NCBI GenBank assembly: GCA_019454105.1 | Contig: CP075364.1 | Location: 1,367,362 to 1,431,361, forward strand | Source of the DNA: Fimbriimonadaceae bacterium | GTDB lineage: Bacteria > Armatimonadota > Fimbriimonadia > Fimbriimonadales > Fimbriimonadaceae | DNA length: 64,000 bases | Direction of reading: 5' to 3' | Shown: piece by piece, positions 40,644 through 44,864 of the stretch | Numbering within the stretch: the first letter of the stretch is position 1 | Layout of the letters: each line of letters opens with the position of its first letter | The notes under the pieces: generated by a model | Told to the model about the DNA's origin: nothing | The model's input: the letters and a program-made list of their open reading frames with translations, nothing else | Database searches by the model: none | Made by a program: the position numbers and the translations under genes

Positions 40644-40690
40644 GACGCTTGATCTTACTATCGTCGGTCATACTCGGTTGCGGACGCACC

Positions 40691-42019
40691 ATGAACCGGT
40701 TGCCCAGCGTGGACCGACTTAGCCGATCGCCTGAATTGGAGAAGTTCTCCCCCCGCACCCGGGTGGCGGCCGCCCGAGCCGCCATTGACGAGTTCAGATC
40801 AGCTGGAGGCCCGGCTCCCGGACCGGAAGATCTCGTGCGGCTGGCGTTGGAATTGGCAGAAGGTTTGGCTAACCCCCTGGTCAGACCCGCTGTCAACCTG
40901 TCCGGGGTTGTGCTCCACACTGGTCTCGGTCGGGCCCGACTCGCTCCGGAAGCCGCCGCCCAAGTCGCGATGGCCGCCGCCCGGTCGGTGACTGTCGAGA
41001 TCGACCCTGAAACAGGGGGCAGGGGTGACCGACAGGAGGCTGTCAGGGGCCTTCTCGTCGAGCTGACTGGGGCCGAAGACGCCATCGTCGTCAACAACTG
41101 CGCTGCGGCCGTGCACCTTGTCCTGCGGTCGCTCACGGCCCAGCGAGGAGTGGCGCTCTCTCGCGGTCAAATGGTGGAGATCGGAGGGTCGTTCCGGATG
41201 CCCGACATCGTTCGTGATTCGGGTTGCGCCTTGGTAGAAGTCGGTTGCACCAATCGGACCAGCCTGGACGACTATCGGGAAGCCTTGGAGTCCGGGTGTT
41301 CGGTCGTCCTCCGTTGCCACCGGTCGAACTTCACGATGACCGGGTTTGTGGGCGAGCCATCGGCAAAGGAAACGGCCGAGTTGGCGCACTCGTACGGGGC
41401 GCTGACGATCGATGACCTGGGAAGTGGGTGCCTGGTGGACACCACCCGGTACGGCCTTCCGAAGGAGCGGACTCTGCATGAAGCCGTGAGCGACGGGGCC
41501 GACGTGGTCATGGGCAGCGGCGACAAGCTGCTGGGCGGCCCTCAGGCAGGACTGATCGTCGGGCGCCGCGACTTGCTCCGGCAGGTCCGAACCCACCCTT
41601 TGGCTCGTGCCTTCCGGATCGACAAGCTGTGTCTAGCCGGCCTCGAGGCGACTCTGCGGATGTACGCCGAAGGTCGCGAGTCAGACGTTCCTTTGTGGCG
41701 ATCTCTAGCCCGCTCTCTGGCGGCTGTCAAGCGCGACGCAAGGCGACTAGCTGACGCCTTTCCGGGAAGGGCTGTGGTCGGACAGGGAACGACTGAACTG
41801 GGCGGAGGATCCTTCCCTGGGGCGGGCGTCCCAACTTGGCGAGCGGGCCTGGAGTCGCGCTCAGCCGTCTCTCTTCTCGCCGCCCTTCGGAACTCGCGCC
41901 CAGCTGTGATCGGGCGGATCGAAAAGGACCTGGTCTGGCTGGACCCAAGGCCTGCGGAAGCCGAAGACATTCAAGAAGCAGTCGCGGTCCTGCGCCGCCT
42001 TGATCCTGAACTCTTATGA
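40691..42019 (+). CDS. selA: L-seryl-tRNA(Sec) selenium transferase
   Basis: SelA is the PLP enzyme that converts Ser-tRNA(Sec) to Sec-tRNA(Sec) with selenophosphate. The protein is 442 residues. The N-terminal RLPSVDRLSRSPELEKFSPRTRVAAARAAI domain (tRNA binding), NLSGVVLHTGLGRARLAPEA, and the PLP lysine Lys279 in GSGDKLLGGPQAGLIVG are all visible. LCLAGLEATLRMY follows and a small C-terminal domain ends the chain. I chose ATG 40691 (standard N-terminus) over TTG 40649. SelB, SelD and tRNA(Sec) genes are not in the window. The next gene overlaps by ATGA, and a selenoprotein gene lies about 0.6 kb further on. Confidence 0.95.
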   Translation: MNRLPSVDRLSRSPELEKFSPRTRVAAARAAIDEFRSAGGPAPGPEDLVRLALELAEGLANPLVRPAVNLSGVVLHTGLGRARLAPEAAAQVAMAAARSVTVEIDPETGGRGDRQEAVRGLLVELTGAEDAIVVNNCAAAVHLVLRSLTAQRGVALSRGQMVEIGGSFRMPDIVRDSGCALVEVGCTNRTSLDDYREALESGCSVVLRCHRSNFTMTGFVGEPSAKETAELAHSYGALTIDDLGSGCLVDTTRYGLPKERTLHEAVSDGADVVMGSGDKLLGGPQAGLIVGRRDLLRQVRTHPLARAFRIDKLCLAGLEATLRMYAEGRESDVPLWRSLARSLAAVKRDARRLADAFPGRAVVGQGTTELGGGSFPGAGVPTWRAGLESRSAVSLLAALRNSRPAVIGRIEKDLVWLDPRPAEAEDIQEAVAVLRRLDPELL

Positions 42020-42606
42020 CAAGTCATGCCACCGAACACCAGAGCGACACCATCCGGGCCTTGGTCAGAGCCCTCGACCTTCATGGGCCTGGCGAGGGTG
42101 GCCACGCCGAGCGTGTCGCGGTCTATGCCGTCGCGACAGGCGAGAAGATGAGGCTGACTTTTGACGAGTTGCTGACCCTCCGTCGGGCCGCTGCCCTCCA
42201 TGACCTTGGTAAGCTCGGGCTCGATCGCGCCCTTTTGAGCCAACCGGGGCCTCTTGACGAGGCCCAATCGAATGAAGTGCGCGCCCACTGCCTCATGGCT
42301 CTCCAAGTCGTCGGGTCGTTCGAGTGGCTGCGCGCCGCCGTGCCGATGATCCGCCACCACCACGAGAGGTGGGACGGCCAAGGCTACCCAGACGGACTGA
42401 CGGGAGAATCTATTCCTCTCGGGGCCCGCATCATAGCGGTAGCCGAATCATTTGATGTTTTGACCTTTGGGGCTCCATGGCGACCGGCCGTGAGCGAAGC
42501 GGAGGCTGTCCGAGAGCTCCAAGCCGGAGCGGGGTCGCAGTTCGACCCAACCGTGGTCGCCGCCTTCCTCGAAGTCCAGCCCCTGATCCAGCCCGTAGCC
42601 GTCTAA
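42016..42606 (+). CDS. HD-GYP domain protein
   Basis: A 196-residue stand-alone HD-GYP-type phosphohydrolase. The HD doublet is in AALHDLGKLGLD, and the extended HHHERWDGQGYPDGLTGESIPLGARIIAVAESFDVL carries the GYP motif and metal ligands. Such proteins often hydrolyse c-di-GMP; substrate not proven here. It has no sensor domain. Its start overlaps selA (ATGA). Its stop overlaps the stop of the convergent selenoprotein gene (CTAA). Co-transcription with selA is likely. Confidence 0.88.
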   Translation: MTSHATEHQSDTIRALVRALDLHGPGEGGHAERVAVYAVATGEKMRLTFDELLTLRRAAALHDLGKLGLDRALLSQPGPLDEAQSNEVRAHCLMALQVVGSFEWLRAAVPMIRHHHERWDGQGYPDGLTGESIPLGARIIAVAESFDVLTFGAPWRPAVSEAEAVRELQAGAGSQFDPTVVAAFLEVQPLIQPVAV

Positions 42607-42893
42607 CGTCCGGAAGTCTTCTGCTCAATGGCTCGGAGCACCTCTCCTGGTTCAGCGTGCCGTCCGACCGCGTGCTTGGAGAACACTGTCGCACCATCGA
42701 CCTTCACGTCGAAGATCCCACCGCCGCCGGGAACAAGCACGACCTTTTCGAGGACATGGGGAGCGCCCATCGAGGCCCGGAACGCTTCAAACAACTCGGC
42801 CGCCAGACCGGCAGCCCGCGGCGTGTAGTTTCACGCCAGACAAAATGTGATCTCGACGACCATCGTGAACTTGAGAGTACCCTTGTCGCTCAT
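42603..42893 (-). CDS. SelW/Rdx-family selenoprotein with in-frame UGA
   Basis: A thioredoxin-like Rdx (SelW/SelT/SelH) protein of 96 residues, with selenocysteine at position 21. Reading from ATG 42893, the minus strand gives MSDKGTLKFTMVVEITFCLA, then TGA at 42833-42831, then NYTPRAAGLAAELFEAF and on to VVLVPGGGGIFDVKVDGATVFSK. This is the Rdx fold, with CxxU (C18, U21) in place of the family's CxxC/CxxU. The downstream PG-GG-x-F and GR-x-x-EPGE text matches the family. The ATG overlaps the upstream membrane-gene stop (ATGA). Without Sec decoding only a headless 63-residue frame from TTG 42794 remains. The protein likely works in redox chemistry; its substrate is unknown. Confidence 0.87.
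42798..42816 (-). promoter_or_regulatory. Bacterial SECIS-like hairpin
   Basis: Starting 15 nt after the UGA, GGCTGCC-GGTCT-GGCGGCC forms a 7-bp stem (one U-G wobble) with a 5-nt loop GGUCU. The first loop G is 22 nt after the UGA. Bacterial SECIS elements sit just 3' of UGA, with a G in the first loop positions, and bind SelB. GGUCU is also the apical loop of the E. coli fdhF SECIS (recalled from the literature). The hairpin lies inside the coding sequence, as expected in bacteria. Confidence 0.75.
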
Positions 42894-43273
42894 TCCCCCT
42901 GGAACCATTCCTTGACTTCCGGACGGAGCCAGGCCTGGAGAAGGAGGAGGCAGAGAGGCGTCAGACAACAACTCGCGATTCCCAAAGAAATGTTCCCCAC
43001 GTGCATGGCCCAGTGACCTGGGCGCCGCTGGACCCGCGAGAGCCAGAGGTTCAACAGGCCAAAGGCGACCGCCGTAGGCAGGAACAGGGCTCCGGCCAAG
43101 AGCCATACAGAGTCGGGCACCCATTCGCTCGCCAGGGCTTCCCTGCGCGCGATCATCCAAACAGAGACGGCGGCCAACAGCAGGTTCAAACCAGCGGACA
43201 CGAAGCAATACACGCGGTAATAGACGACGGCCCGAGGCACGGACTCTAGTTTAGACTCGGGTACACCAAGCAT
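42890..43273 (-). CDS. Small membrane protein upstream of selenoprotein
   Basis: A 127-residue protein with four predicted transmembrane segments (VVYYRVYCFVSAGLNLLLAAVSVWMIA, VWLLAGALFLPTAVAFGLLNL, ISLGIASCCLTPLCLLLL and flanking). I do not recognise the family. Its stop overlaps the selenoprotein ATG (TGA/ATGA), so the two are probably translated together. ATG 43273 shares CATG with the divergent NFACT start; GTG 43240 (VPRAVVYY) is a plausible alternative start that would free the region. Confidence 0.65.
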   Translation of the reverse strand: MLGVPESKLESVPRAVVYYRVYCFVSAGLNLLLAAVSVWMIARREALASEWVPDSVWLLAGALFLPTAVAFGLLNLWLSRVQRRPGHWAMHVGNISLGIASCCLTPLCLLLLQAWLRPEVKEWFQGE

Positions 43274-44864
43274 GAAGGTGCGGATCCCATTCGACAGTCT
43301 GACGATGGCGGCCGTTGTCGCAGAGTTGCAGCCGCTCGTCGGGGCACGTCTTGATAAGATCGTCCAGACCGACGAGGTGACGGTCGTTCTCGGCTTCTAC
43401 AAAGGCAACGAGAGCTATATCTTGCTCTCAGCCGACCCGAACTACTCACGTGCTCACCTCATCGCCCGGCGGCCCGAGGGGATCAAGCCGCCGCCTCGGT
43501 TTTGCGCCGACCTCCGCCGCACCCTCTCCGACGCCACACTCCAGTTCGTCCGCCAGCGGGGGCTCGACAGGGTCATGGAGGTCGGCCTCAGCGCCCCGTC
43601 AGGCGACTATCAACTCGTCGCCGAACTCATGGGCAAACACTCCAACCTGATCTTGGTCCGGCAAGACCGTTCCATCGCGACCGCGATCAAGTACGTTGGG
43701 CCAAGCAAGAGCCGCCGGCCCATCCTCGCGGGAAAACCCTACGAACCACCGCCGTTCGAGCCTCGGCCCAGCTTGCTGGAAGCCAAGCCGGGCGACAATC
43801 TTCGAGAGTTCGACGGCGGATCACCGTTCCTCGCCAAGTTGATCGAGGCCGGAACGCCCCTGGAAGAGGTCCAGTCCAGCGTACGGGAGGGGCGACTGGC
43901 CGCCTTCTATGCCCATGGTCACGGGGCGTATCCGCTCCCGCTCGGTCCACTCGGGTTGCCATTCGTCGTCAGGTCCTCCCTCGGCCTGGCCCTCGAACAA
44001 TCCTTCACGGGTTTGATCGAATCCGACAGGGCCCATGCTCAGAAGCAGGGCCTCCTCAAACAGCTTTCTCGGGTGCTCCTTGCCCGCGAAGTGGCCCTCC
44101 TCGAGGTTCGCGAGTCCGTCGATGCGGCGAAGAACGCAGACAGGCTCCAGCTGTTCGGGCAACTTGTGCTCGCTTATCAAGGCCAGATCAAGCCAGGCGA
44201 CCGGGCTCTCGACGCCTGGGACTACGAGGGCCGACCGCTCGCCGTGCCCCTCCGAGCCGACTTGACACCGCTTGAGAACGCGCAGAGGTACTTCGACAAG
44301 GCCAAACGGGCCAAGTCCCGGGCCGACGAAATGCTGTCCCAAGAAGCGAGGCTCGACAGCGACGCCAGAGAACTCGCGAGGTGGCTGCAGGAAGTCGAAT
44401 CGACCGACGATCCCGAACGGATCAAGACCGCTTTCGAAGAGGCAGAACGGCGCCGCTGGCTCAACCTGACCCCTGCGCCGGCCAGAAGCCGCGAAGAGCG
44501 ACCCTTCGAGGGCCACGCGATCCGCGAGCTCGTTTCGCCAGGAGGCTGGCGCGTCCTTTACGGCGAGAACGCGACCTCGAACGACTATCTGACAACGAAG
44601 TTCGCAAGGCCGAGCGACCTGTGGTTCCATGTCCGGGGTGCCCCCTCGGCCCACGTGGTTCTCGCCACGAACAACCAGCCCGACCGCGTGCAACGCGCCG
44701 ATCTTGAGTTCGCGGCGCGGGTCGCGGTCAGTCGCTCGCCATCCAAGCACTCAGGATATGTTTCGGTGGACTATGTTCAGAAACGCCACGTCCGCAAGCC
44801 GCGCGGGTCGGCCCCGGGGTTCGCGACCTACACCAACGAAAAGACCCTTCATGTGGAGACCTGA
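43272..44864 (+). CDS. rqcH: NFACT family protein (RqcH/FbpA type)
   Basis: A 530-residue NFACT protein. RqcH binds stalled 50S subunits and adds C-terminal alanine tails to mark aborted peptides. Visible are an NFACT-N domain (IPFDSLTMAAVVAELQPLVGARLDKIVQ), helix-rich middle (QARLDSDARELARWLQEVE) forming the coiled-coil arm, and a C-terminal NFACT-R domain (GWRVLYGENATSNDYLTTKFARPSDLWFHVRGAPSAHVVL). The last two segments are the RNA-binding fold. It may also be called a fibronectin-binding-like protein. The ATG overlaps the divergent ATG at CATG 43271-43274. Confidence 0.88.
   Translation: MKVRIPFDSLTMAAVVAELQPLVGARLDKIVQTDEVTVVLGFYKGNESYILLSADPNYSRAHLIARRPEGIKPPPRFCADLRRTLSDATLQFVRQRGLDRVMEVGLSAPSGDYQLVAELMGKHSNLILVRQDRSIATAIKYVGPSKSRRPILAGKPYEPPPFEPRPSLLEAKPGDNLREFDGGSPFLAKLIEAGTPLEEVQSSVREGRLAAFYAHGHGAYPLPLGPLGLPFVVRSSLGLALEQSFTGLIESDRAHAQKQGLLKQLSRVLLAREVALLEVRESVDAAKNADRLQLFGQLVLAYQGQIKPGDRALDAWDYEGRPLAVPLRADLTPLENAQRYFDKAKRAKSRADEMLSQEARLDSDARELARWLQEVESTDDPERIKTAFEEAERRRWLNLTPAPARSREERPFEGHAIRELVSPGGWRVLYGENATSNDYLTTKFARPSDLWFHVRGAPSAHVVLATNNQPDRVQRADLEFAARVAVSRSPSKHSGYVSVDYVQKRHVRKPRGSAPGFATYTNEKTLHVET

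Follow-up and report, generated by a model that had tools for sequence, protein, structure and literature searches.

Known SELENOW-like selenoproteins and bacterial SECIS elements

In the Sargasso Sea selenoproteome, SELENOW-like proteins were the most abundant selenoprotein family, with 48 genes that carried SECIS elements (2005, PMC1088965). The family is listed with pfam10262 and a CxxU motif in PMC9312934, and bacterial selenoprotein mRNAs are decoded through the SelB pathway (PMC1794560, PMC9312934). The published model of the bacterial SECIS (PMC13188914) has an apical loop of 3-9 nt on an upper stem of 4-16 bp, with a G in the first two loop positions. The loop mostly reads NG[G/U]NN, with N1 and N2 able to pair, the UGA lies 16-37 nt from the apical loop and the MFE is -7.5 kcal/mol or lower. 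Our literature search under Armatimonadetes and Armatimonadota found no description of a SELENOW-like selenoprotein for the lineage.

Here we describe such a gene, rdx, and the hairpin behind its UGA in a Fimbriimonadaceae genome. Coordinates refer to the window, the 64,000-nt stretch of DNA that was analysed, unless another sequence is named. We put at about 97% the probability that the hairpin is the bacterial SECIS of a SELENOW-like (Rdx) selenoprotein, to which SelB-GTP with Sec-tRNA(Sec) binds so that selenocysteine is inserted at the UGA and a CxxU redox centre results.

A SELENOW-like gene with an in-frame UGA

The rdx gene lies on the minus strand (42603..42893) and has 96 codons and a TAG stop. 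Its translation contains a CxxU motif (FCLAU), the U of which is an in-frame TGA at codon 21 (42831..42833, read from 42833 to 42831), in the peptide context FCLAUNYTPRAAGLAAEL. The product matches Rdx in Pfam (PF10262; E 5.2e-16, 59 bits against a gathering threshold of 22.6) and scores above the cut-off of the NCBIfam model SelT/SelW/SelH (TIGR02174). Solved bacterial Rdx proteins also match it in sequence, among them 3dex (E 1.4e-8) and 2fa8. The CxxU motif, together with homologues that have Cys at the U position, places the protein in the SELENOW-like family. Downstream of the TGA the frame remains open and family-like. This gene would be cut short or overlooked by standard gene callers, and its annotation is corrected here.

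The start codon of rdx shares an ATGA with the stop codon of the gene directly upstream. That gene (42890-43273, minus strand) encodes a small hydrophobic protein of 127 aa with no match in Pfam or NCBIfam, and 2 nt of its start are shared with the start of a divergent NFACT/RqcH-like gene (43272-44864).

The genome encodes the selenocysteine machinery

On the strand opposite to rdx, some 0.6 kb past its end, lies selA, the gene for L-seryl-tRNA(Sec) selenium transferase (40649..42019, plus strand; TIGR00474 440 bits against a cut-off of 268, Pfam SelA E 2.6e-115). Its ORF opens at an upstream TTG; translation probably starts slightly further downstream. Elsewhere, the 2.74-Mb genome, a single contig, has a tRNA-Sec with anticodon UCA, a full-length SelB (323 bits against a cut-off of 242) and a SelD (341 bits) with one in-frame TGA. 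All four genes that define the Sec-decoding trait, selA, selB, selC and selD, are thus encoded. Among relatives at least 90% complete, tRNA-Sec was present in 23/23 genomes with an Rdx gene as against 82/152 overall (hypergeometric P 1.3e-7). Six Rdx-bearing genomes gave no tRNA-Sec match, and each of these is less than 90% complete.

An HD-domain (HD_5) gene (42016-42606, plus strand) fills the interval, with a 4-nt ATGA overlap at the end of selA and a tail-to-tail overlap with the 3' end of rdx. Neither selA nor the HD_5 gene was found beside rdx in the short flanks of phylum relatives. Because selA was not found there, its linkage to rdx may be peculiar to this genome.

The in-frame TGA of selD (C1:1687052-1687978; region L016 1498-1580) falls at the active-site position, SCAGUASK (L016 1531-1533). 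A downstream hairpin is predicted 14 nt from this UGA (AGCUGGG/CCCAGUU with loop GCCAG), and its agreement with the standard SECIS model is poorer. Judged from its sequence, SelD of this genome is probably a selenoprotein too.

The hairpin downstream of the UGA

On the minus strand the TGA is followed by a 14-nt spacer (AACTACACGCCGCG, 42817..42830), then the 5' arm of a stem (GGCUGCC, 42810..42816), an apical loop (GGUCU, 42805..42809) and the 3' arm (GGCGGCC, 42798..42804). The arms form seven pairs, including one U-G wobble. This is exactly the spacer, stem and loop that the initial annotation had described, with the strand omitted. Applied by script, the published criteria all four agreed with the hairpin: the loop has 5 nt and the stem 7 bp, N1 and N2 of GGUCU can form G-U, 21 nt separate the UGA from the apical loop and the energy is -14.3 kcal/mol. 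The annotation was right to place a bacterial SECIS with a G at the start of its loop just 3' of the UGA, and UGA, spacing, stem and loop are all kept in homologues (see below).

The isolated 21-nt hairpin was unusually stable at this energy (z -2.8; 0/200 shuffles as stable), and the stability of the whole 64-nt region was not unusual (z -0.4). A fold of the 60 nt after the TGA, proposed as a check together with the annotation, returned the hairpin as the minimum-energy structure, as did nt 1-36 and 1-45; for nt 1-51 and 1-80 the minimum was a shifted register instead. In longer context an alternative fold is predicted to compete and the hairpin fold is not unique. When folding began at nt 15, leaving out the spacer, the hairpin had P 0.98-1.0 in every context tested. 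The 14-nt spacer is expected to be covered by the ribosome.

A second hairpin, which encloses the UGA (GGCGUG/CACGCC), was set aside; by eye it is not conserved in homologues. A scan of the window against Rfam at the gathering threshold gave no match.

With the UGA in the ribosomal A site, the hairpin would sit near the mRNA entry, where SelB-GTP carrying Sec-tRNA(Sec) would bind it. Insertion of selenocysteine at the UGA would then yield the CxxU redox centre. Lacking the hairpin, translation would be expected to end at the UGA after 20 residues. From established knowledge of bacterial selenoproteins it is to be expected that SelB binds, that Sec is inserted and that the protein has a redox role.

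Coding constraint accounts for part of the single-sequence signal

The initial annotation had held that a chance coincidence of spacing, stem and loop was unlikely. Among 600 random TGAs in the window, which is GC-rich, only 0.5% had an equally stable downstream hairpin, but 19.5% had one that fits the loose SECIS model. Synonymous recodings of the same peptide fitted this model in 81% of cases and were as stable in 14.5%. Measured against such recodings, the fixed 7-bp frame gave P 0.034 for energy and P 0.07 for pair count. The lone hairpin is a weaker argument than the initial annotation assumed. The single-sequence evidence for a SECIS is no more than moderate, since pairing is already favoured by the encoded peptide Ala-Ala-Gly-Leu-Ala-Ala.

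Taken by itself, the hairpin depends in part on the coding sequence. It had been taken as independent support for Sec decoding; the SECIS is indeed supported by homologues, but the conserved peptide already favours the hairpin. That synonymous recodings so often yield a hairpin fitting the loose model also speaks for an alternative, in which the TGA would be a genuine stop codon or a mutation in a pseudogene and the hairpin would simply follow from the conserved Ala-Ala-Gly-Leu-Ala-Ala codons. Comparison with homologues decides against it.

UGA and stem are conserved together and covary

In the phylum survey, 39/291 genomes had an Rdx gene; 38 of these 39 genes carry one TGA and the remaining one has Cys. 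The TGA was found at the same codon in all 26 relatives from outside the phylum, which belong to the Pseudomonadota, Planctomycetota, Bacillota, former Deltaproteobacteria and Cloacimonadota. Removal of duplicates left 57 distinct UGA genes including this one, and 46 of these, diverged in sequence, align without gaps, so that the spacer has the same length throughout. The register of the stem is kept in the 57 UGA genes, even in the eight that fall outside the loose SECIS model, mainly by its energy cut-off.

The compensating changes that the initial annotation had suggested looking for were found. In the 46 sequences the 7-bp stem scored 0.366 for covariation and shuffled alignments 0.132 (0/500 shuffles), with 83.9% of cells paired against 72.3% and two-sided changes in 37 cells against 11.9; the shuffles ignore relatedness and these numbers are not strict probabilities. 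Controls in which the 3' arm was slid by 1-3 columns keep relatedness and point in the same direction, the score dropping to 0.039-0.117. Conservation through compensatory changes lies outside the published SECIS model and is added support.

Three of the stem pairs join third codon positions. At pair 18-30, where the sites are synonymous, 56/57 sequences are paired, where shuffling of bases within the same amino acid gives an expectation of 39.4 (P < 0.0002), and the pair occurs as C-G, U-A, G-U, U-G and G-C. Pair 21-27 is likewise formed in 56/57, with one C-G to G-C exchange (P 0.02). The outer pairs are only loosely kept, 15-33 in 22/46 (not above chance) and 16-32 in 27/46 (broken in 19/46), and the conserved core is therefore about 5 bp. 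RNAalifold, run without a given structure, returned a 5-bp stem in the same register.

A covariance model of the aligned sequences, this one included, found only the rdx site in the whole genome (50.7 bits) and no further sites, the selD hairpin included. The model is specific to the SECIS of the SELENOW-like/Rdx family. As far as sequences can tell, it is the comparison across homologues, not the lone hairpin, that settles the identity of the element as a SECIS.

Loop codons and Cys homologues

The loop reads NG[U/G]NU in every one of the 57 UGA genes (AGUUU 16, GGUCU 13, CGUGU 10, AGUCU 9, CGGGU 6, AGGUU 2, AGUAU 1). In a set thinned to below 75% identity, all 24 Ser codons at the loop are AGT, which makes up 6% of Ser codons in the background, and all 13 Gly codons are GGT (background 17%); the lineages are not independent, and the pattern spans phyla. 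The reading of the TGA as a true stop with a by-product hairpin is contradicted by this restriction to AGT and GGT and by the covariation at synonymous sites. A UGA at the same codon in 57 genes of several phyla, the open and family-like frame beyond it and the complete Sec machinery of the genome stand against it as well. We rejected the true stop on UGA conservation and covariation, and consider it very improbable.

Within the SECIS reading, the residues at codons 8-9 after Sec (Gly/Ser/Arg by NG[U/G], then Leu/Val/Met) might have been chosen by the loop and not by protein function. The C-starting loops (CGUGU, CGGGU) would form a second class, unable to make the N1-N2 pair, so that SelB may read a slightly different loop in the lineages that have them. 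We offer this proposal tentatively, as one that could well prove wrong.

Nine Cys homologues from bacteria and haloarchaea (L043, L103, L104, L106-L111) served as controls. They formed 1-3 of the 7 frame pairs, and none had an NG[U/G]NU loop paired in register. Other hairpins fitting the loose criteria occurred in 3/9, which shows how permissive these criteria are. Being distant and different in peptide, these controls carry less weight than the covariation test. A plasmid search with the Sec protein as query gave no match; the search with a Cys homologue as query supplied control sequences.

That the hairpin is a general translation element (a pause or frameshift stimulator) or a transcription attenuator unrelated to Sec is the least probable reading: stable stem-loops 3' of a codon are generally known to stimulate other kinds of recoding, but this hairpin is tied to the UGA and missing from Cys homologues, its loop fits the SECIS rule NG[G/U]NN, and every well-assembled relative with an Rdx gene also has tRNA-Sec.

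Two further genes are of note. The genome with the sole Cys form of Rdx in the phylum (L043, G136:C22:51752-51976) retains tRNA-Sec, and a Sec-to-Cys change without loss of Sec decoding is possible there. On plasmid NC_011961.1 of Thermomicrobium roseum, an in-frame TGA (L105 225-227; motif CTSU) precedes the annotated start of the Rdx CDS (WP_012642931.1) and is followed by a SECIS-like hairpin with loop CGUGC. The record WP_012642931.1 probably truncates a selenoprotein.

Comparison with known systems

Taken together, our results point to a lineage that decodes Sec, with a SECIS that is compact and deeply conserved. The 57 aligned SELENOW-like SECIS sequences, with their clean covariation test at synonymous sites, are useful as a yardstick for other predicted SECIS elements because they demonstrate that one hairpin by itself proves little.

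Like the SECIS of E. coli fdhF, the rdx hairpin lies 3' of a UGA and presents GGUCU at its apex. Over the 5' arm and loop, 10/12 nt are identical (GGCUGCCGGUCU here and GGUUGCAGGUCU in fdhF, the latter verified against E. coli genomes). The stem of the fdhF element, however, contains a bulged U, and an A-U pair closes its GGUC loop, whereas the corresponding U of the rdx hairpin is in a U-G pair. The rdx stem is a continuous 7 bp, and fdhF also has a longer lower stem. Identity of the two loops, as asserted in the initial annotation, thus reduces to the shared GGUCU string, a common loop motif only.

The bacterial SELENOW-like selenoproteins (SelW-like, Rdx, PF10262) agree with rdx in family, CxxU motif and UGA position and in having a SECIS immediately downstream, and here the only difference is the host lineage. 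SECIS elements of this kind have been known since at least 2005, and the rdx hairpin is ordinary in kind.
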